Source: Desulforhabdus amnigena
Lineage (GTDB): Bacteria > Desulfobacterota > Syntrophobacteria > Syntrophobacterales > Syntrophobacteraceae
NCBI RefSeq assembly: GCF_027925305.1
Contig: NZ_BSDR01000001.1
Span: forward strand, 1,701,001-1,765,000
Direction: 5' to 3'
Length of the DNA stretch: 64,000 nt
The position numbers were made by a program, and so were the translations under genes. The notes beneath the pieces were generated by a model. It did not search any database and was not told where the DNA came from. It saw nothing but the letters and a program-made list of their open reading frames with translations. This document shows positions 46,859 through 61,303 of the stretch, piece by piece; the stretch's first letter is position 1; the number at the start of each line of letters is the position of its first letter.

Positions 46859-48116
46859 GTACTCCAGCGCGATAATTACGCAACCAGATTTGTTCAACCC
46901 TAAGAGGCTCCAGGCATGTTAAAATTAAATAAGAAGGCAACAAACAGGAGAGGAGTACAACCATGCCTGGACCTCAACACAAATACTGCATCTACATTCC
47001 TCCAGAGAAACGGAAAGTATTGAAACATCTGAGAGTGAGCTACACAAAACCCTATGCGGAGGTTGTAAGGGCTCGTATCCTCCTCCTATCGCATGAGCAC
47101 CCGGAATGGAGCATCCGGCAGATCGCTGATGAAGTCGGATGCAGGCCATCCACCGTTAAGAAGTTCCGCAACAGATGGGTCAATGAAGGTAGCCTCAAAA
47201 ACCACCCCCGACCCGGAGCCCCAAGAAAGCATCCTTCTGCCGTGAGGGCTCAGATCACCTTGTTGGCCTGTTCGAAACCGTGTGATCATGGCAAGCCATG
47301 GCAACGCTGGTCTGGAGAGAAGCTTTGTCAAGTCGCCAAAGAAAAAGGAATCGTCAGCCACATTGCCCCGAGCACTATTCGTCTTTGGCTGAAACAGGAC
47401 AAGATCAAACCCTGGCAATATCATCTATGGCAAAAATCTCCTGATCCAAAATTCGTTGAGAAAGCGTCTCCAGTCCTGGATCTCTATGAGAACGCTCCCC
47501 AGTTGTTCCAGCAGGGTGAAGCTTCCGTTTGTATCGATGAGAAGACCTCCATTCAAGCAAGAAGACCTCTTCACGAGACCAAACCCGCCATAGCCGAACA
47601 CCCCGTTCACGTGGCATCCCGATACAAACGGATGGGAGCATTACAGCTGTTTTGTGCTCTTATCGTCGCCAATGGAATCACCTTCGCCCGTACCTTCGCT
47701 CGCAAGCGCTTCGCGGAGTTCAAAACCTTTCTTCTGAGTTTCTTTTCTTCAGCCATTGTCAAGGGATTCAAGGTTATTGATCTCATTCTGGACAATGGCT
47801 CTACGCATGCACCCAAACAACTGGGCAAATGGATTGCTTCTCTCAACCTTTCTTTTAATGTTCGTATCTACTGGCTTCCCACATATGCCAGTTGGCTCGA
47901 TCAGGTTGAGATCATCTTCAGTAAGGTTACAAGGGATGTACTCACTCCCAACGACTTCAACGACAAAAAGGAGCTTTCACAAATGCTTATGGGTTACTTT
48001 GATGAGCTCAACAGACATCCAAAACCCATAAAGTGGACCTATACGAAAACAAAGCTCGTGGCCAAGTTCGCTCCAAAATCCGTGCAAATGGCCGCGTAAT
48101 TAGCGCGTTGGGGTAC
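46859..48116 (+). mobile_element. IS630-family insertion sequence, 1258 bp, apparently intact
   Basis: Inverted ends of 23 bases (46859-46881 and 48094-48116; 20 of 23 match), beginning GTACTCCAGC on the left and GTACCCCAAC on the right complement. TTA flanks both sides, consistent with the TA duplication of IS630/Tc1 elements. Confidence 0.88.
46963..48099 (+). CDS. IS630-family transposase
   Basis: 378 aa transposase. A helix-turn-helix (SIRQIADEVGCRPSTVKKF) is followed by a basic linker. The DDE core has CIDEKTSIQAR, LILDNGSTHAPK and WLDQVEIIFSK (the final E), the standard IS630 pattern. The frame is uninterrupted and the inverted ends are present, so it may be active. ATG 46963 lies in CCATGCCTGG. 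Confidence 0.92.
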   Translation: MPGPQHKYCIYIPPEKRKVLKHLRVSYTKPYAEVVRARILLLSHEHPEWSIRQIADEVGCRPSTVKKFRNRWVNEGSLKNHPRPGAPRKHPSAVRAQITLLACSKPCDHGKPWQRWSGEKLCQVAKEKGIVSHIAPSTIRLWLKQDKIKPWQYHLWQKSPDPKFVEKASPVLDLYENAPQLFQQGEASVCIDEKTSIQARRPLHETKPAIAEHPVHVASRYKRMGALQLFCALIVANGITFARTFARKRFAEFKTFLLSFFSSAIVKGFKVIDLILDNGSTHAPKQLGKWIASLNLSFNVRIYWLPTYASWLDQVEIIFSKVTRDVLTPNDFNDKKELSQMLMGYFDELNRHPKPIKWTYTKTKLVAKFAPKSVQMAA

Positions 48117-50558: not shown

Positions 50559-51803
50559 TCATAAGCGGGTCATGCCCACCATGACGGAAAGGCCTCCGTG
50601 CTTGATCGTCCAAAATCGCATGGAGGGCAGTCCCATGATCACTGCAAGGGAACGGTCGGGAACCAGTATCGCTACGTGCCACCCGGCAAAAGCACGGCGC
50701 AAGTGGATGGCGAGAGGGGCATAGAGTTCCTTGCCCCCCCCTTCCAACCGCAACCCATAGGGGGGGTTGAGGAGCAGCAAGCCCGGCTTCAGCCCGAGAT
50801 CGCGGGGGTGGAATTGAAAAAAATCCTCGTTTATCCATCGAATGTCCTCTCCCACCCCGGCTTCGAAAGCATTTTCCCGAGAAACCGCAATGGCCTCACA
50901 GTCATGATCTATCCCCACGATGGGAACGGGGGAATGGGGAAGAGCGTTTTCCCTCGCCTTACGGCAAAGGTAACCCCAGGTCTTTTCCTGAAATGCCGGC
51001 CATTTTTCAAAGAGAAACGGCCGTGACAACCCTGGAGGCAGATGTCTTCCCATCAGAGCAGCTTCGATGGCGAAGGTCCCGGATCCGCACATTCCGTCCA
51101 CCAACGGCGAATCCCCACGCCACCCCGAACGCATGATAATGCCCGCCGCAAGGGTCTCACGGAGAGGAGCTCCCATATGCCGCCTGCGATAGCCTCTCTG
51201 ATGCAGATGGGCCCCCGTCGTATCGAGACTGATTCGACATTGATTCTTTTTCAGGTGGATGAGCATTCTCTGTTTAAGGGGCTCGAGAGATGCGGGTTCG
51301 GCGGTGGAATCTTGATCGGATTTCCATCGGCCCGGCGGCTCCATCTTTTGCAACATGAACCGCTTCCGCACAGCTGCCACTACAGTATCGGCCACCACCC
51401 CTTCATGTTCAATGCGTGAATGCTCCACAAAAGCCTCAACATGAAGGGGAAGAGTCCTATTCAGCCACAACTCCCAGGGTACGCCGCAAACCTTATGAAA
51501 CAACTCTTCCGCGGCGCCCGCACGAAACGCAGGAAGACGACAAAGAATGCGACTGGCCGTCCTTAGCCATAAGTTGCTGAGATAACAAGCACTGAGATCC
51601 CCTGAAAACTCTACGCCGGCTTCCGTTATTGCCAGGTCAGGCATTCCCAGGGCTGAGAGCTCCCCCTTGCACAGAAGAGAAAGTTCCGGGGGAGTCACCG
51701 CCGCGAACCGATGCACCGGGACCTGGACGTAGCGCTTCACATGACGTAGGTAGGCCTTGCTTTCCTCAAGTTCCTTTTCAATTTTACCCGATTTACCCGA
51801 CAC
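50559..51803 (-). CDS. RlmL/Trm14-like SAM-dependent rRNA methyltransferase
   Basis: 414 aa. The N-terminal THUMP-like RNA-binding region (about residues 30-160) is followed by the UPF0020 catalytic domain. Motifs are LDTTGAHLHQRGYRR, the SAM-binding VDGMCGSGTFAIEAALMG and the catalytic LLLNPPYGLRLE (N-P-P-Y, typical of base N-methylation). It most resembles the m2G methyltransferases acting on 23S rRNA; the exact nucleotide is not inferable. The start is GTG 51803 with AAGGAAAA upstream. Confidence 0.85.
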   Translation of the reverse strand: MSGKSGKIEKELEESKAYLRHVKRYVQVPVHRFAAVTPPELSLLCKGELSALGMPDLAITEAGVEFSGDLSACYLSNLWLRTASRILCRLPAFRAGAAEELFHKVCGVPWELWLNRTLPLHVEAFVEHSRIEHEGVVADTVVAAVRKRFMLQKMEPPGRWKSDQDSTAEPASLEPLKQRMLIHLKKNQCRISLDTTGAHLHQRGYRRRHMGAPLRETLAAGIIMRSGWRGDSPLVDGMCGSGTFAIEAALMGRHLPPGLSRPFLFEKWPAFQEKTWGYLCRKARENALPHSPVPIVGIDHDCEAIAVSRENAFEAGVGEDIRWINEDFFQFHPRDLGLKPGLLLLNPPYGLRLEGGGKELYAPLAIHLRRAFAGWHVAILVPDRSLAVIMGLPSMRFWTIKHGGLSVMVGMTRL

Positions 51804-52027: not shown

Positions 52028-52228
52028 ATTCGAAAGGCCATTCTATTCACTTCGCCCGTCATTTTCCATCGACTCACTTGACGAAAATGGAGCCTTCTTA
52101 TAATCTTTATATTCTCGAGATTTTCGATGGTTCTTTTTCTTGTCTTCTTGTCGTTTTCATACAGGGTCGAAAGTGAATCCCTCCTGATGAATGGATCTGG
52201 ATAGTCAAAATCCAAGGAGCGCCATATT

Positions 52229-53083
52229 TTGAACACTGGTCCAAGCAAGAAATCAAACGGCCTTGGTTTGCCCGAAAATTACCGTCCCCGCCATTTTGCC
52301 GCCCTTTGGCAGGACCCTCCCCATGGTTGGCGAGATCATCTGGCTGCAGCCATCCAAGAGGGGGGCGGGAATCAAATGCCCAAGATATTTTTCCGGGCTG
52401 ATGACATCGGCGCAGGAGGCCAGCCATTCGAAGTCTTGTGTCGTTTGTTCCGCCGCTATGAAGTCCCTCTGGCTATGGCGGTCGTTCCAGCCTGGATCAG
52501 CAGTATCCGCAAAAAACAGCTTTTCGATGCGGCCCCTCTGGATGAGCCGCTCTGGGGTTGGCACCAACACGGCTGGCGCCATGTCAATTGGGAGCGTTCG
52601 GGAAAGAATTCCGAATTTGGCGAACAACGCCCCTTCGAAAAACAAATGCGCGACATTTCGCAGGGGTGTCGGAAAATGCAGGAGATCTTCGGAGACCGAC
52701 TGGCCGAAGTTTTCACTCCACCATGGAACAGGCTTTCCAATGCAACCATCAAAATTCTTCATGAATTGAATTTCAAAGCGGTTTCCATGACCGGCCCCTT
52801 TCCAAGAGGATACAAGAATACGGAAGGCCTGAAGAATCTGAGGATTCAGCTCGACCTCCATACAAGAAAGGCTAAAGACGGTATCTCTGATTTCAAAACG
52901 CTGTTGGAAGAAATCACCGTCCTTTTGGGAAAACGGGAGCGGATCGGGATCATGATTCACCACCAACGTATGACTTCTTTTGCTTTTGAATTCTTGGAGG
53001 AGCTGCTCCATCTATTGAAGAATCATAGCAAAGCACATTTTCTGGATTTCAAGGAGCTGGCAGCAAATCCGAATGAAGAATAG
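52229..53083 (+). CDS. Polysaccharide deacetylase-like protein
   Basis: 284 aa NodB-fold protein. The metal-site aspartates are in FFRADDIG (about residue 54) and the histidine pair in WGWHQHGWRHVNW; TPPWNRLSN supplies the characteristic R/P strand, and IMIHHQRM the late histidine. There is no signal peptide, so it acts in the cytoplasm, as do some de-N-acetylases of nucleotide- or lipid-linked sugars. The start is TTG 52229 after AAGGAGC. The last 11 bases overlap the radical SAM gene, so the two are coupled. Confidence 0.82.
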   Translation: MNTGPSKKSNGLGLPENYRPRHFAALWQDPPHGWRDHLAAAIQEGGGNQMPKIFFRADDIGAGGQPFEVLCRLFRRYEVPLAMAVVPAWISSIRKKQLFDAAPLDEPLWGWHQHGWRHVNWERSGKNSEFGEQRPFEKQMRDISQGCRKMQEIFGDRLAEVFTPPWNRLSNATIKILHELNFKAVSMTGPFPRGYKNTEGLKNLRIQLDLHTRKAKDGISDFKTLLEEITVLLGKRERIGIMIHHQRMTSFAFEFLEELLHLLKNHSKAHFLDFKELAANPNEE

Positions 53084-54353
53084 GCCATTGTTACTCTATG
53101 CGGATGAGGCGGGAAATATTCTCGATTGCCCCCATCTGGAAATGGTGGGGGCAAGCGCAGACCTCTGGCGGCGTCTGCAACCCGGCGACTGGATTCCACT
53201 CCCTCTCGGCAGCGAACTTTTTCTTCTTCCAGCCCGTCTTCCCGTGGGTTTCAACCCCGAGACAAAACGGTTTGAAATCCTGTCCCACGACCCCGTCAAC
53301 CCTTCCCAAAAGGTGCAGGCCGTAGCCGCTTTCATGGCTCCCGCCCACACCCAGACTTATTCAGCTGCCTACAAAACCCTGCCGGGAGCCCCCTTGCTTC
53401 CCCTTTTTGCCTACACGGCCGTGGGTTGGCTGAACGGGCGATTCGTAGCGACCGGAATTCGGGTGGACCCGGACCCCCGCCAGGATCTGCGCAATTTCAA
53501 TCCCAAAACCATCGAACGCAATGCGCGCCGCCGAATGAACCGGGAAAAACGCAACCGTCTCATTCAGCACTTGGGGAAATGCGCTATAACGTACGGCTGC
53601 CCCGCGGCGCGAAATCTTTTTATGGACCGCTGGGAGGCTCCCCTCCCCACTTCACCCGTCTGCAACGCCAGGTGCCTCGGGTGTATCAGCTTTCAGGAAC
53701 GGGAAGATCTCTGCGCCAACCAGGACCGCATCACCTTTGTGCCGACTCCCGATGAAATCTGCGGTGTCGCCGTTCCGCATTTGAAAGATGCCCCCAGGGC
53801 CGTCGTGAGCTTCGGGCAGGGGTGTGAGGGAGAACCGCTGCTCCAGGCCGAAACCCTCGCCCAGGCTGTCCGCATGATGCGCCAGGAAACTCCTCGAGGC
53901 ACGATCAATCTCAATACCAACGGAAGTCTCCCTCAACGTGTCGAAAAACTATGCGAAGCCGGCCTGGACAGCATCCGCGTGAGCATGAACAGCTCTCAAC
54001 CCCAATACTACCAGGCCTATTTCAACCCCCGGGGCTACACCTTCGAGGACATCAAGCAGTCCCTGAAAACGGTTAAGGATTATGGACGCTTTGCGTCCAT
54101 CAACTATTTCGTTCTCCCGGGGTTTACGGACAGCCGGCCCGAATTCGATTCCCTGTGCCGCTTCATCGAAGAAACCCGCCTGGATCTCATACAGATGCGC
54201 AATCTCAATATAGACCCGGAATGGTACCTGCGACACCTGAAGATCCCCCGGGACGAGGAACCTTTGGGCATTCGTCCACTGATGAAGAGGTTGAAAGATC
54301 GCTTCCCGGAGCTGCGCCTGGGATACTTCAACCCCTGCCTGAACGAAACATAG
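53073..54353 (+). CDS. Radical SAM protein with long N-terminal extension
   Basis: 426 aa. The first ~195 residues are a non-catalytic region (WIPLPLGSELFLLPARLPVG, then RNARRRMNREKRNRL). The cluster motif VCNARCLGC (C-x3-C-x2-C) starts about residue 197, followed by VVSFGQGCEGEPLL, INLNTNGSLP and DSIRVSMNSSQPQYY of the radical SAM barrel. No C-terminal extra cluster of the SPASM type is obvious. It overlaps the deacetylase and precedes a membrane protein. Substrate unknown; a peptide or envelope modification is possible. Confidence 0.82.
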   Translation: MKNRPLLLYADEAGNILDCPHLEMVGASADLWRRLQPGDWIPLPLGSELFLLPARLPVGFNPETKRFEILSHDPVNPSQKVQAVAAFMAPAHTQTYSAAYKTLPGAPLLPLFAYTAVGWLNGRFVATGIRVDPDPRQDLRNFNPKTIERNARRRMNREKRNRLIQHLGKCAITYGCPAARNLFMDRWEAPLPTSPVCNARCLGCISFQEREDLCANQDRITFVPTPDEICGVAVPHLKDAPRAVVSFGQGCEGEPLLQAETLAQAVRMMRQETPRGTINLNTNGSLPQRVEKLCEAGLDSIRVSMNSSQPQYYQAYFNPRGYTFEDIKQSLKTVKDYGRFASINYFVLPGFTDSRPEFDSLCRFIEETRLDLIQMRNLNIDPEWYLRHLKIPRDEEPLGIRPLMKRLKDRFPELRLGYFNPCLNET

Positions 54354-54405
54354 AGATCAATCCCTCTTCGCCGCTTGCGAAGGAGCGAGGAAAGGAAAAC
54401 GACAT

Positions 54406-54831
54406 TTGGTCAAGTCAGCTTTCTGGAAAAAATGCAAACCAACCGTTTCCCGTCACTGGCTTTTGCTCACCGCCGGCCTCTTCTGGTCGGCAGTCGGAAT
54501 GGTTCTTTGCATCATGGCCTGCTACTGGCTGGCACATCTTGAATGGCCCCTGAATGGAATCGGTGTGCTTCTCGGTTTCGGGGGCGGTATCGCCGTTTAC
54601 CGTTTCGGGTTCAGCCGCATTGCAAAGAAAAACATCGCCCGCATCTTGAAAAAATCCGAAAATGTCTGTTTTTTCGCCTTTCAGGCATGGAAAAGCTATC
54701 TCTTGGTCATCATAATGATGTCTTTCGGCTACACTCTGCGCCATTTGCACACGCCACGCATCTTTCTCGCCGTGATCTATGCAGCCGTCGGAACGGGACT
54801 TGCCTTGAGCAGTTCTCTTTACTACAAGTAG
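54406..54831 (+). CDS. Small four-helix membrane protein
   Basis: 141 aa, unrecognised. Four hydrophobic segments can be seen (WLLLTAGLFWSAVGMVLCIM, GIGVLLGFGGGIAVYRFGF, YLLVIIMMSFGY, IFLAVIYAAVGTGLALSSS) with basic cytoplasmic loops. The start appears to be TTG 54406, with AAAGGAAAA upstream. It lies 52 bases after the radical SAM gene and is likely in the same operon. Confidence 0.7.
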   Translation: MVKSAFWKKCKPTVSRHWLLLTAGLFWSAVGMVLCIMACYWLAHLEWPLNGIGVLLGFGGGIAVYRFGFSRIAKKNIARILKKSENVCFFAFQAWKSYLLVIIMMSFGYTLRHLHTPRIFLAVIYAAVGTGLALSSSLYYK

Positions 54832-56091: not shown

Positions 56092-56593
56092 GGAGTGAGT
56101 CGCTCTTGAAATCCTCATTTAATTCCTTCATATTTTCTTCACAATCAAATGTTAATGTGTTTTAATTCAATCAGATTAAGGTCCCAAGAACCTCCATCAC
56201 ATTGAATTGTGCCGGCGTCATATCAAGCCTCCCTTTGGAGGGATAAACTCAAATCCAAAAGGCTCGTCATATTTTTCCCGCTTTTCCAGGCGGGTGAATC
56301 GAGGCAAGCGCCATGAATGCAAGGATCCTTTTGGTCGATGACCACAAAATGCTGCGAAACCTTTTGCGAGTCATACTGGAAGACTGTTCCGGTATATGCG
56401 TCGTCGGTGAAGCGGAAAATGGCCAGGAGGCATTGGAGCTGGCCATGCACCATAAACCGGATGTCGTGCTCATGGACATCAGCATGCCACAGATGGACGG
56501 CATCACTGCAACCCGTAAAATGATCACGGAAAACCCCGGAATCAAGGTGATTGCATTCTCCATACATTCCGGAAGCGAATATGTGAAAAGGAT

Positions 56594-58291
56594 CAGCAGT
56601 GAAGATCCAGTAGATCTAACCACAGCTCAAAAGTGCTCCCATGGCGTTCAATGCAGTTGATCCCAGGTTGAAGATACAGCTATCCCATGTGCACTCATTC
56701 TGGTGCTGTTTATAAAGATTTATAGATGTATGGGGGATCAGAGCCTGGAACATGGACATCCTTCAGGAAGTGTCAAATCGTATTTGGAATGGCTGTGCCC
56801 GGACTCTATCGAGGAAGTCCCGAGCGAGCCTGAGGTTGCGCCAAGCTTCGAGAAGTCTGAACGCGATGTTTTTGGCCGATCCCACTCCCGTGGGGAAAGC
56901 TCTCCGAAAGAGACTGCCTCTTTGGATGAGCTGAAAAAGAGTGCAGGCGATCTGCAAGAGAAGGTAGAAGATCTTGCAGGCGACATCATTGTTGCTGTAA
57001 ACATGTTCCAGTTCAAATCCCCCGTTTTTTTGGACATTGAAGCCCTCGTTTTCAATGATCCATCTGCTCCTTCCTCCATCGTTGGCTATTTCGATGGCGC
57101 TTGCCTGACTGATTTTGAAATTGGTAACCCACTGGAATCGAGTGGTCCTGATCTGCCCTGTCTTATCCGGTTTGGTCTCAAGGCACCGGAGAACGCAAAG
57201 GGAGTGCTCTCTGTTTTCAGTATCGATATAGGGAATATTGTTTACCCACCGGTATTGCTGGTGAATTCTGGCTTCTTTGCCTGTCCGGTACTCGAGGTGA
57301 CACTCAGGATGGAATCTCTGGAGGGCCTCGAACTGTTGCTCAACGGAGGGGAGGTTATCCTTGTGAACGATCAAGAACTTCCAGCCGTATCGGTTGCACA
57401 GGTCAAAGGTGGGGCCGCCGGCAAAGAGGCTATCGAGGCTGATGCACAGGGGAAGCCGGGGGAATCTTTCTTTGAGCCTTTGTGCAAGCCGGTAGAAAGC
57501 CTTGAGCTCACAGTCCTGTTTGCCGGGATTCTCCCCGGGGTTCTCGATGAATTCCGTCATAAGGGAGAAGGCGAATCCGTTTGGGGTCACGAGCTTTGCC
57601 TCGAGCACCTCGTGGTAGTAGATCGTCTTGGTTCCGTGAGTCCGGGTGAGACAGTACGGGCAATGTCTCTTGTCGAAGGAAATGGTCCCCGTCCCATCGA
57701 CAGCCACAACATAGTAGATGCCCCGAAGTCTCCAGCGAGAGAGCACCTTCTTTCTGATGAGGGTTTCGGCCATCCCGGTAACGGCCTCTTGAGCCTCTTG
57801 CGGAGAGAGCCTGAGGTAGAGATCATTAAGGGTATCACCATGGGGAAAGGAGTCGACACCGAAAAGGATCTCGAACTTTTCCCTGGAGGGCTCATTCTTT
57901 CGGAGTTGGTATGTGACCTGTCTTCTGGCTCCGAGTCTCAGCAAGAACATGAGAACTCCTGCAAAGCAAAGAGATGCAAGAGGGTAGTTGATCTTCCTCT
58001 GGTCTCTCGGATCGGATGCGCCTCCAAAAATCTTCTGGAAACCACCGAAGAAATGCTCCACCGTCTTGATGAGAATTCCGATCAGAGCTTCCTGCTCCTG
58101 CTCAGCGCTGTCCGTGGTAGGATTCATGGTTCGGAAATCAAAAATGAGATTGTTTTTCAATGCGGCCTCCTTCACCCAACGGGAACTCCAGTTGAGCGTG
58201 AAGAAATTATTTTCTCTCTTGAGAGGAAGCCCTCTCGTTTTTTGATTTTATCCCGATTTACTGTGCGAAGAAAAATCAATCGTTATTGCTG
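56594..58291 (-). mobile_element. DDE-type insertion sequence, 1698 bp, inside the receiver gene
   Basis: Ends begin CAGCAGTGAAGAT (left) and CAGCAATAACGAT (right complement), 10 of 13 matching. Flanking GAAAAGGAT (56585-56593 and 58292-58300) is a 9-base target duplication. One transposase gene on the minus strand. Confidence 0.88.
56763..58160 (-). CDS. IS4-superfamily DDE transposase
   Basis: About 465 aa. Candidate catalytic residues are Asp in YYVVAVDGTGTIS, Asp in LPLCISLDSLFAGGP and Glu in SRWIIENEGFNVQK, where the W-x-I-E-N pattern is typical of IS4/IS1634-like transposases. The start is placed at TTG 58160, which has AAGGAGG five bases upstream; the frame opens at GTG 58175. The exact IS subfamily was not assigned. 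The frame is intact. Confidence 0.85.
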   Translation of the reverse strand: MKNNLIFDFRTMNPTTDSAEQEQEALIGILIKTVEHFFGGFQKIFGGASDPRDQRKINYPLASLCFAGVLMFLLRLGARRQVTYQLRKNEPSREKFEILFGVDSFPHGDTLNDLYLRLSPQEAQEAVTGMAETLIRKKVLSRWRLRGIYYVVAVDGTGTISFDKRHCPYCLTRTHGTKTIYYHEVLEAKLVTPNGFAFSLMTEFIENPGENPGKQDCELKAFYRLAQRLKERFPRLPLCISLDSLFAGGPTFDLCNRYGWKFLIVHKDNLPSVEQQFEALQRFHPECHLEYRTGKEARIHQQYRWVNNIPYIDTENREHSLCVLRCLETKPDKTGQIRTTRFQWVTNFKISQASAIEIANDGGRSRWIIENEGFNVQKNGGFELEHVYSNNDVACKIFYLLLQIACTLFQLIQRGSLFRRAFPTGVGSAKNIAFRLLEAWRNLRLARDFLDRVRAQPFQIRFDTS

Positions 58292-58523
58292 GAAAAGGAT
58301 GCTGGAAGCGGGTGGGGTCGGATATGTTCTCAAGGATTCTTCATTTGAAGAAATAATCACCGCTATCCATACTGTGATGTCGAACAACACCTATTTGAGT
58401 CCAGGGATCGATTTTACAGCCGGTCCATTGCAGAAAAACGAGTGAGACCACCGGTTGAATCCGACGGTAACGAAGATCGTTGCATGCCGACTCCGATGAA
58501 AAGCGGGTTTCAAGGAAAAGCGG

Positions 58524-59490: not shown

Positions 59491-60975
59491 TACTACAACC
59501 GCCATATGATTAGAATGAGCATACCTTCAATGTGCACCCCAAGAATCGAGAACGATAGTGACTTTGTCGGGCCTGAAGCCTTCTTTTTCGTCTCCAGCGG
59601 GACCAGGCCAACCGAAATTCAGGAGAGTGTACTGGCAAGGGCAGAACGATTTCAAGCAGTCGCCTCACCTCTGGAACTGTCAGCTCGGCCAGCTCTGCGT
59701 CTTTTTTTCCCCTCCTCCGAAGCCCGGATCGAGCTCAGCCAGGTATGGGCCATCATAGAGAGGGTAATGTGACGATGCCAGCTGTGCCAGTACCTGACTT
59801 CATAGTGATCAAGCCCGGCTTCTCCTTTGCCTTCCTCAAAGCATTGCTCAATGGTGTAGCGGGTCGATGCCACCTGGGCAAGACGAGTGAGAGGAACATT
59901 CTCGGGAGCAAAGCAAAGGTAGTAGGCCATTTCTTCGGGTTTGGCTACAGATCGTCTGGCCAGAAGCCAGACCTCAGGTCCGGGGAGCTTGCCACGGCTC
60001 TCGATCACACGAACCCTTGCCCAGTCATAAGTTCTCGGTCCCTTTTCTCCTTTTGCCACACTGAACCGCTTCCAGACATCAGGAGACCATCCCATCACCA
60101 CCTCAGCCACCGTCCCGGCATGCGGAGCATCCTTGGCCAACCGTACCCTTGTGGGTGGCCTGCCCATCCCTTTGCGCAAGGGCTGTTGGAGCAACGGTCG
60201 CCTGGTCCAAACGGGGGTATTGCAAGAGACTGCCAAGACATACCAGTGTCCACTCTCCTGGATAGCTGCTCGAAGTTTCGGAGAATCCCCGTAGATCTCA
60301 TCTCCTGTGACCCAGCGTATCGGGACACCCATTTTCCAGGCATGATCGAGCATCGAGAAGGCCTGTTCGGGCTTGGTCTCAAACACCACCTCATCAGGAA
60401 CCTTCGCCCCCTTGCGTCTTACCATGTCATTGGCCCAGTCCTCGGGAAGAAAGAGTCTTCTGTCCAGGAACACATGTCCTTTGGCCGAGGAATAGGTGAG
60501 GAAGGTTCCCACCTGAGAGTTTTCCACCTTCCCGGCCGTACCCGTGTATTGTCTTTTCACCCCGACAGACTTATCACCTTTTTTGATAAAACCCGTCTCA
60601 TCTACGACTCCAATTCCTTCCGGGTCTGCAAAATTCTCGATCACGAACTGCTCCAAAATATCCCGTGCCTCATCCGCATCCCAGTTCACTCGGTAAAGCA
60701 GCCTTTCCATCTTATCCGGTCTCTTATCTCCTATGGCCTCAGCCATCTGCCAGCCGTTCTTGCGCTCAACGGGTGCAAGCAAGGAGTGAAGGTATTTTGC
60801 CGACTGTTCCCGAGATTGCGCCCGGGGGAATAGATGAGAAAAACGAGCATGAAAGGACCGAAAAGAATCTTCCCAATAATCCAACTCTTTCAACGTCATG
60901 ACCGTTACCTCCGAAGGTTTCTCTACCTTATAATATATCCGGAAGTGCGGCATTTTACATATGGCGGTTGTAGTA
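59491..60975 (-). mobile_element. IS701-family insertion sequence, 1485 bp, apparently intact
   Basis: Perfect 18-base inverted ends (TACTACAACCGCCATATG and complement) flanked by CTAA on both sides (59487-59490 and 60976-60979), fitting the YTAR-type 4-base duplication of IS701 elements. Confidence 0.92.
59652..60899 (-). CDS. IS701-family transposase
   Basis: 415 aa transposase. ATG 60899 (MTLKELDYW) has GGAGGT eight bases upstream; the open frame continues 77 codons further but that part crosses the IS end. DDE residues are in GVVDETGFIKKG, WVTGDEIYGDS and YTIEQCFEEGKGEAGLDHYE. The early segment FPRAQSREQSAKYL and LLAPVERKNGWQMAE is typical of IS701. Confidence 0.93.
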   Translation of the reverse strand: MTLKELDYWEDSFRSFHARFSHLFPRAQSREQSAKYLHSLLAPVERKNGWQMAEAIGDKRPDKMERLLYRVNWDADEARDILEQFVIENFADPEGIGVVDETGFIKKGDKSVGVKRQYTGTAGKVENSQVGTFLTYSSAKGHVFLDRRLFLPEDWANDMVRRKGAKVPDEVVFETKPEQAFSMLDHAWKMGVPIRWVTGDEIYGDSPKLRAAIQESGHWYVLAVSCNTPVWTRRPLLQQPLRKGMGRPPTRVRLAKDAPHAGTVAEVVMGWSPDVWKRFSVAKGEKGPRTYDWARVRVIESRGKLPGPEVWLLARRSVAKPEEMAYYLCFAPENVPLTRLAQVASTRYTIEQCFEEGKGEAGLDHYEVRYWHSWHRHITLSMMAHTWLSSIRASEEGKKRRRAGRADSSRGEATA

Positions 60976-61082
60976 CTAATCAAGGGAGGAATTTGTCTCA
61001 AGGGGAATGGCAGTGAGACATTGGTTATGTATAAGAGATACCCTCCGGCATCGGCGGGATGCGTGTGAAACGGTTGGTCCGA

Positions 61083-61115
61083 ATAAAAAACAGGGTGACC
61101 GGGGGCGGTCACCCT
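61083..61115 (-). terminator. Rho-independent terminator
   Basis: On the minus strand AGGGTGACCG, a CCCC loop, CGGTCACCCT, then GTTTTTTATTC. It lies 11 bases after the small-protein stop codon. Confidence 0.9.
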
Positions 61116-61126
61116 GCTGTCTAAGA

Positions 61127-61303
61127 TCACCCTCCGGCGAAGGGCTGTGGGCTTTTTGCGTCATCAATGCAATTTTTTAACTCTTCTTTATCCACTTTCG
61201 ATGGATCCTTCAGCGCATCAAGTGGGCACACAAATTCGTTGCCGGCTTTGTCCTTCACCCAAACAAACTGTGTTCTCCCTTTGGGGGAATATGCCTCTGC
61301 CAT
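61127..61303 (-). CDS. Small hypothetical protein (58 aa)
   Basis: Unrecognised. It starts MAEAYSPKGRTQFVWVKDK and contains two cysteines (EFVCPLDAL, KNCIDDAK). ATG 61303 has AAAGGAGGG upstream, and a strong terminator follows the stop, so it is very likely a real single-gene unit. Confidence 0.7.
   Translation of the reverse strand: MAEAYSPKGRTQFVWVKDKAGNEFVCPLDALKDPSKVDKEELKNCIDDAKSPQPFAGG

Follow-up and report, generated by a model that had tools for sequence, protein, structure and literature searches.

Radical SAM enzymes bind a [4Fe–4S] cluster through three cysteines, and this cluster cleaves S-adenosylmethionine (SAM) to yield a 5'-deoxyadenosyl radical. In the GTP 3',8-cyclase MoaA a second cluster is located at the C-terminus, and the SPASM/twitch enzymes are defined by a cysteine-rich C-terminal extension. 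Second clusters with an open site are treated in passages of Mulliez et al. 2017 (PMC5352715), which give CX4CX5C plus a C-terminal serine as the ligand set of LipA. Here we describe a radical SAM enzyme of a widely conserved family, unnamed in the family libraries searched, encoded in a 64,000-nucleotide stretch of the Desulforhabdus amnigena genome (contig NZ_BSDR01000001.1, positions 1,701,001 to 1,765,000; hereafter the window). The genome is a single contig of 4.54 Mb. The radical SAM gene directly follows a gene for a deacetylase-like protein, and a gene for a small membrane protein stands downstream. The first two genes probably constitute an order-wide two-enzyme operon whose products most likely have separate jobs, with the membrane protein gene being unrelated.

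The deacetylase-like open reading frame (ORF; 52229–53083, + strand) encodes 284 residues from a TTG start, preceded by AGGAG at 52215–52219, and shares 11 bases (53073–53083) with the radical SAM ORF (53073–54353, + strand; 426 residues, ATG start). The third ORF (54406–54831, + strand; 141 residues, TTG start) begins after a gap of 52 bases and encodes a four-helix membrane protein, here judged to lie outside the unit. Taking a 19-residue stretch with a Kyte-Doolittle mean of at least 1.2 as a hydrophobic segment, the membrane protein contains four, and neither the deacetylase (maximum 0.92) nor the radical SAM protein (maximum 1.17) contains any. The Pfam scan of the membrane protein returned nothing significant. 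The initial annotation had described this layout and a deacetylase without signal peptide, and both were reproduced from the sequence. It had further proposed that the three products act together on a sugar- or lipid-linked intermediate at the inner membrane, and had itself held that unlinked genes in relatives would speak against such a unit.

Gene order was compared across the 40 nearest genomes, where contig ends in draft genomes hide linkage. Of these, 39 carry the radical SAM gene, 32 carry the deacetylase gene and 18 that for the membrane protein. Where both the deacetylase and the radical SAM gene are present (32 genomes), they are direct neighbours on a single contig in 30, and all 30 genomes belong to the window's taxonomic order. 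Two genomes deviate: in G002 the deacetylase borders on a fragment of a radical SAM gene at a contig edge, and in G038 the two genes are on separate contigs. Among 30 listed locus pairs, 26 have overlapping longest ORFs, some genomes being listed twice. The membrane protein gene, conversely, stands next to the radical SAM gene in 3 of its 18 genomes (G000, G001 and G011). One gene intervenes in G005. Of the remaining 14 genomes, G006 and G023 have it on the radical SAM contig but at a long distance (about 2 Mb in the complete genome G006), and the others have it on a different contig. Moreover, it was found in none of the 13 genomes sampled from the two sister families (G024–G036), all of which keep the pair. 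Thus, the trio is not one unit and was rejected as one pathway, while the deacetylase–radical SAM pair is a unit; from the proposed three-gene order the pair stands and the membrane protein, unlinked in most relatives, drops out. Seven genomes, namely G039 and six members of a single genus (G007, G017, G018, G020, G022 and G023), have the radical SAM gene with no deacetylase found. In loci L054 and L056 it directly follows the divergent methyltransferase gene that elsewhere flanks the deacetylase.

Membership of the radical SAM superfamily is indicated by a CX3CX2C motif, by a match to Pfam Radical_SAM (PF04055; residues 192–355, 1.8e-17, 64.4 bits against a cut-off of 29.5) and by structural matches to the barrel. 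An NCBIfam scan of the window protein gave nothing near a cut-off, the best score being that of MoaA (42 against 284 bits), and the N-terminal ~190 residues match no Pfam family. Relatives were collected by scanning bacterial and archaeal genome contigs with a pattern; at least 585 stretches were confirmed, and the best 80 of them are described here. An alignment of the window protein and 47 of these 80 loci, the rest being unselected, left out L065, L084 and L096, whose matched range runs past a stop, as well as L097, whose omission was unnecessary. Radical_SAM was recovered in 48 of the 48 aligned sequences and any other Pfam family in two at most. The labels among the best 80 of at least 585 comprise Deltaproteobacteria/Desulfo-, Bacteroidota (Chitinophaga, Flavobacteriales), KSB1, Calditrichaeota, Spirochaetales and Nitrospirae, and among the named ones the best matches carry the labels Desulfobacteraceae, Deltaproteobacteria, Desulfacinum, Desulfarculales or Syntrophobacteraceae; many labelled records are metagenome bins and possibly mis-binned. 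Identity between phyla is about 50%.

At a threshold of E ≤ 1e-60, the radical SAM gene occurs in 97 of the 197 genomes of a phylum sample, as a single copy in each. Single copies were likewise counted in 7 of 148 genomes in the phylum of L111 (Chitinophaga), 17 of 59 in that of L103 (labelled KSB1) and 5 of 61 in that of L076 (labelled Nitrospirae). Besides L111, the named Chitinophaga loci with the gene include L114 and L119. A search of plasmids gave no match at 1e-10. The 50 matches listed from a viral library mostly bear radical SAM or Fe–S oxidoreductase names, with 14–18% identity in the top rows. Open-access literature searches, on which the description of the family as undescribed rests, returned no paper recognised as dealing with it: the passages seen of PMC5764234 and PMC3543383 do not concern the gene, and a term search of the main text of PMC10102598 gave zero matches.

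The AlphaFold2 model of the whole protein (predicted local distance difference test, pLDDT, 94; predicted template modelling score, pTM, 0.92) consists of an all-beta domain up to about residue 130, helices at 144–183 and then the barrel. Because searches with the whole model were filled by barrel matches, the N-terminal domain was folded alone (residues 1–141, 53073–53495, + strand), again giving a confident all-beta model (pLDDT 94.5, pTM 0.88). Foldseek found no match to this domain in the PDB at E ≤ 0.001 (best E 0.81). VIA-align placed 0 of 978 PDB chains at Z ≥ 2, although the program aligns Foldseek-ranked chains only, so that a new fold is unproven; according to its tool note, models without a clear match typically reach Z 7–8 against a larger chain set. 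The initial annotation had remarked on an N-terminal region that it did not recognise and had suggested structure prediction, and the region indeed matched no Pfam family and, in these searches, no PDB fold. A profile of the beta domain gave 51 matches in 118 genomes, one per genome. Every match lay at the beginning of a radical SAM gene, and copies of the domain standing alone were not seen among these genomes.

Six cysteines, and no others, are invariant across all 75 sequences compared, a set that includes 27 of the 32 loci L140–L171 (L147, L161, L165, L166 and L170 were missed). C197, C201 and C204 form the CX3CX2C motif (53661–53684, + strand; within the Pfam Radical_SAM match) of the SAM-binding [4Fe–4S] cluster. 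C170 and C176 form a CX5C motif (codons within 53580–53600, + strand) and are probable ligands of a second Fe–S cluster. The sixth, C251 (codon 53823–53825, + strand), stands in a SAM-binding motif that we take to be GGEP-like (SFGQGCEGEPLL). No cysteine after C251 is invariant in the 75 sequences. The invariance of C170, C176 and C251 suggests that a second Fe–S cluster is bound, and our best guess, by analogy, is that the open-site logic set out in the passages of PMC5352715 would hold for this enzyme too. Taken together, a two-cluster family present in about half of the phylum sample and patchily in at least three further phyla may, through a beta domain with a fold absent from the PDB, recognise a universal target and perform an undescribed modification; this we put forward tentatively, as a proposal somewhat short of an even chance.

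The deacetylase scores below the Pfam cut-offs, with 24.3 bits against 26 for DUF2334 (2.7e-5) and 19.1 bits against 23.1 for Polysacc_deac_1 (E 0.0014), and is therefore named deacetylase-like; its relative in L134 passes both (29.0 and 30.4 bits, respectively). The window protein has D58, D59, H114, H118 and H245 as well as the motif FTPPWNR. In an alignment of 24 relatives, of which 17 are linked to the radical SAM gene and 7 are not, D59, H114, H118 and H245 are kept in all 24 and D58 in 23. From CE4 enzymes we presume that D58, D59, the HxxxH motif and the late histidine are metal-binding or catalytic residues. The sole replacement of D58, by asparagine, is found in L018 of genome G014, which has no GT28 glycosyltransferase; there H244 is also replaced by arginine, and the protein looks as if it were decaying after the loss of GT28. 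Another copy (G032:C9:218996–219787) contains one in-frame stop codon, either a pseudogene or a sequencing error.

The distribution of the deacetylase follows that of GT28. In the phylum sample the deacetylase (E ≤ 1e-15) was detected in 13 of 197 genomes and GT28 (query from L134, E ≤ 1e-50) in 14, including all 13 with a deacetylase; the 13/13 coincidence has p = 2e-19, uncorrected for relatedness. Among the 40 relatives, all 25 GT28 genomes carry the deacetylase, and all 8 genomes without the deacetylase are also without GT28. Eight loci outside the window's taxonomic order were inspected (L132–L139; six from the 197-genome sample, and L138 and L139 from genomes picked for the radical SAM gene). 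GT28 is next to the deacetylase in seven and one ORF off in L139; the L137 deacetylase was absent from the ORF listing and recovered by tblastn. All eight have GT4 genes nearby; seven (all but L133) also have a histidine-phosphatase-like gene, and six (all but L133 and L137) an ATP-binding cassette (ABC) ATPase and permease. The recurrent set, e.g. L134:2294–13896, comprises GT4, GT4, histidine-phosphatase-like, GT28, deacetylase, permease and LolD/MacB-like ATPase genes, together with a gene for a ~1600-residue protein whose end is weakly FtsX/MacB-permease-like, and its content varies by locus. It looks like a system for synthesis and export of a glycan or glycolipid, with no name assignable. 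Outside the order, the radical SAM gene is on a contig other than that of the deacetylase and GT28 in G038, G062, G072, G115 and G130, and about 0.3 Mb from the deacetylase in G176.

Because the deacetylase tracks GT28 in 13 of 13 genomes and usually sits next door to it, we assign it with fair confidence to a glycosyltransferase (glycan) pathway, and the plain reading of the gene order is that in the ancestor of the window's order the gene left the GT28 cluster and settled before the radical SAM gene. Within the order, L175 and L174 show GT28 followed by the permease with no deacetylase in between. The window's genome has a GT28 gene at 1276901–1278022, beside a nif cluster, and another GT28-like gene, accompanied by two GT4 genes, near 1543359–1546884. 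One gene of the nif cluster (L172, G000:C1:1267097–1278022) was identified as a true NifB by family search (398 bits), and the other nif names come from reading of the sequence; the cluster lies directly beside the GT28 gene.

We therefore favour, as the probable explanation, a two-enzyme operon with separate functions. C197, C201 and C204 hold the radical-generating [4Fe–4S] cluster, as established for the superfamily, and the N-terminal beta domain, seen here only joined to the radical SAM enzyme, most likely recognises the substrate. This substrate is most likely common to every carrier, i.e. RNA, protein or a cofactor, because the gene is single copy, strongly conserved and without a constant partner. 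The neighbouring protein, presumably a cytoplasmic metal-dependent deacetylase, most likely acts on a sugar from the GT28/GT4 set encoded elsewhere in the genome.

Several observations weigh against this explanation. In the phylum sample the radical SAM gene is present wherever GT28 (14 of 14 genomes) or the deacetylase (13 of 13) occurs, compared to 97 of 197 genomes overall. The co-occurrence of GT28 and the radical SAM gene has p = 3e-5 counted by genome, 2e-4 by genus and ~0.004 as eight lineages, and it may stem from shared ancestry or lifestyle, or else reflect a helper role of the radical SAM enzyme in the GT28 pathway. The two genes have remained neighbours throughout three families, a persistence that suggests a benefit of proximity. 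Moreover, 7 of the 15 GT28-less relatives retain the deacetylase, and C251 could be a catalytic residue instead of a cluster ligand.

The neighbours of the radical SAM gene differ by lineage, with no constant partner (209 neighbours in 112 loci, clustering by lineage); by inspection of the 112 loci, without statistics, no partner family recurring strongly across orders was seen. The neighbour tables are incomplete, as the ORF picker often took antisense ORFs in G+C-rich loci. In Desulfobulbaceae-type genomes a ~141-residue family stands upstream in 28 loci (the single member scanned has no Pfam match; e.g. L059:7558–7983), separated from the radical SAM match by 14–42 bases in 10 of 12 listed, and a FUR-type family stands downstream in 11 loci (one member scanned, PF01475). 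A membrane protein is the neighbour in Chitinophagaceae loci, and in the window's family and order a superoxide dismutase or flavin adenine dinucleotide (FAD) oxidoreductase gene lies downstream. In L052 and L016 two queuosine precursor genes, QueC and a QueF-like ORF, come after the radical SAM gene. A maturase of ribosomally synthesised and post-translationally modified peptides was considered and is disfavoured, as no constant adjacent partner was recognised, short-precursor ORFs below 70–90 residues being unlisted, and C-terminal cysteines are not invariant.

Some of these neighbours bear on an alternative in which the radical SAM enzyme, like MiaB, TYW1 or RlmN, modifies tRNA or rRNA and the beta domain binds the RNA. 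This is possible, albeit unlikely, and it is the best placed of the alternatives. A single-copy gene without a partner is consistent with it, as are the RlmL-like methyltransferase gene next to the pair (window 50559–51803, divergent), the QueC and QueF-like ORFs (QueF by sequence reading), a convergent Dus-like ORF (cluster c25, L143; two genes off in L150) and PrmA-like ORFs (L140, L142), these last two types also named by reading of the sequence. However, translation genes are common, the neighbours, noted without background comparison, amount to a lead, and several of them are not co-directional. RlmN is among the structural matches (Z 14.5), yet this concerns the general barrel, over which other families score alike, and neither Foldseek nor VIA-align recognised an RNA-binding domain in the beta domain.

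A role in maturation of a metal or sulfur cofactor, as for NifB, MoaA or LipA, is a shade less probable and in our view rather unlikely. It would agree with the top structural score, which belongs to NifB (6y1x, Z 16.6 over 215 residues; also the best PDB sequence match), followed by BlsE and LIAS at 14.8 each, and with MoaA as the best NCBIfam match at 42 bits. Conversely, the NCBIfam scores are far under their cut-offs (moaA 42 against 284 and nifB 20 against 344), the window's genome has its own NifB (398 bits, cut-off 344), and carriers of the gene span sulfate reducers to Chitinophaga.

Least probable, and doubtful, is that the deacetylase and then the radical SAM enzyme act on one glycan or glycolipid intermediate at the inner membrane: the adjacency in 30 of 32 genomes, the overlap of longest ORFs in 26 of 30 listed pairs and the radical SAM gene in 14 of 14 GT28 genomes would fit such a sequence, but in the phylum sample 83 radical SAM genomes are without GT28 and 84 of 97 without the deacetylase, the six genomes of one genus mentioned above have neither partner, outside the order the deacetylase is placed with GT28 and apart from the radical SAM gene, and in the other lineages examined the radical SAM gene has other neighbours. 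Hence, of the shared intermediate proposed initially, a sugar-linked substrate of the deacetylase is likely given the GT28 association, and the common pathway is not borne out.

Further along the window, a response-regulator frame (from 56313; region 56313–58445) appears, by ORF reading, to be split by a transposase-like ORF on the opposite strand (56763–58175; no Pfam match at 1e-5), with the remainder of the regulator near 58300–58445. Two DDE transposase genes, within ~14 kb of each other, flank the region at 46963–48099 (DDE_3/HTH_32) and 59652–61130 (DDE_5).

The deacetylase case illustrates that adjacency alone can mislead, as genes that form an operon here show a distribution in other lineages that suggests separate systems. 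A conserved, single-copy, multi-phylum enzyme without name or substrate in the libraries is a good target for study, the more so as modifications of this kind are hard to predict. The beta domain is a ready target for structural biology owing to its confident model and lack of a match.

With respect to known systems, the deacetylase resembles the CE4/DUF2334 polysaccharide deacetylases in the DD, HxxxH, FxPPWxR and late histidine motifs conserved in its family, and differs in lacking a signal peptide or hydrophobic segment and in being associated with a glycosyltransferase set. For the radical SAM enzyme, the 50 barrel matches listed include four NifB structures (Z 15.6–16.6), with BlsE, LIAS, PFL-AE, RlmN and others at Z 12.8–14.8; such resemblance is general to radical SAM enzymes and points to no particular function. 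The closest, NifB, aligns over the barrel (residues 132–418; Z 16.6, root-mean-square deviation 3.8, 215 aligned residues, 21% identity), but the match begins at residue 132 and leaves the beta domain uncovered, and TIGR01290 scores 19.7 bits against a cut-off of 343.65, with E ≤ 0.001 reached by 2 of the 48 aligned sequences (2.4e-5 at best). A role as NifB substitute was rejected in view of the separate true NifB gene in the window's genome. TYW1 is likewise distant (TIGR03972, 20.2 against 317.95 bits), and SPASM/twitch membership is not supported, there being no invariant cysteine after C251 in the 75 sequences. LIAS, i.e. the LipA type, aligns with residues 84–426 of the model (Z 14.8, 253 residues), and as in LipA a second cluster may be bound by a pair of cysteines that shortly precede the barrel; the enzyme described here differs in having CX5C plus a cysteine in the SAM-binding motif, and it does not show the LipA motif, C170 and C176 being its sole invariant cysteines ahead of the barrel. 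MoaA provides the best NCBIfam match over the barrel (residues 196–373) and shares the 3+3 cysteine logic, albeit at scores far from membership (TIGR02666, 42.1 against 284.05 bits; NF001199, 31 against 231) and with no invariant cysteines after C251 on the side of the family described here. The three further invariant cysteines, as predicted ligands, could place it among the 3+3 cysteine enzymes with an open second [4Fe–4S] cluster.

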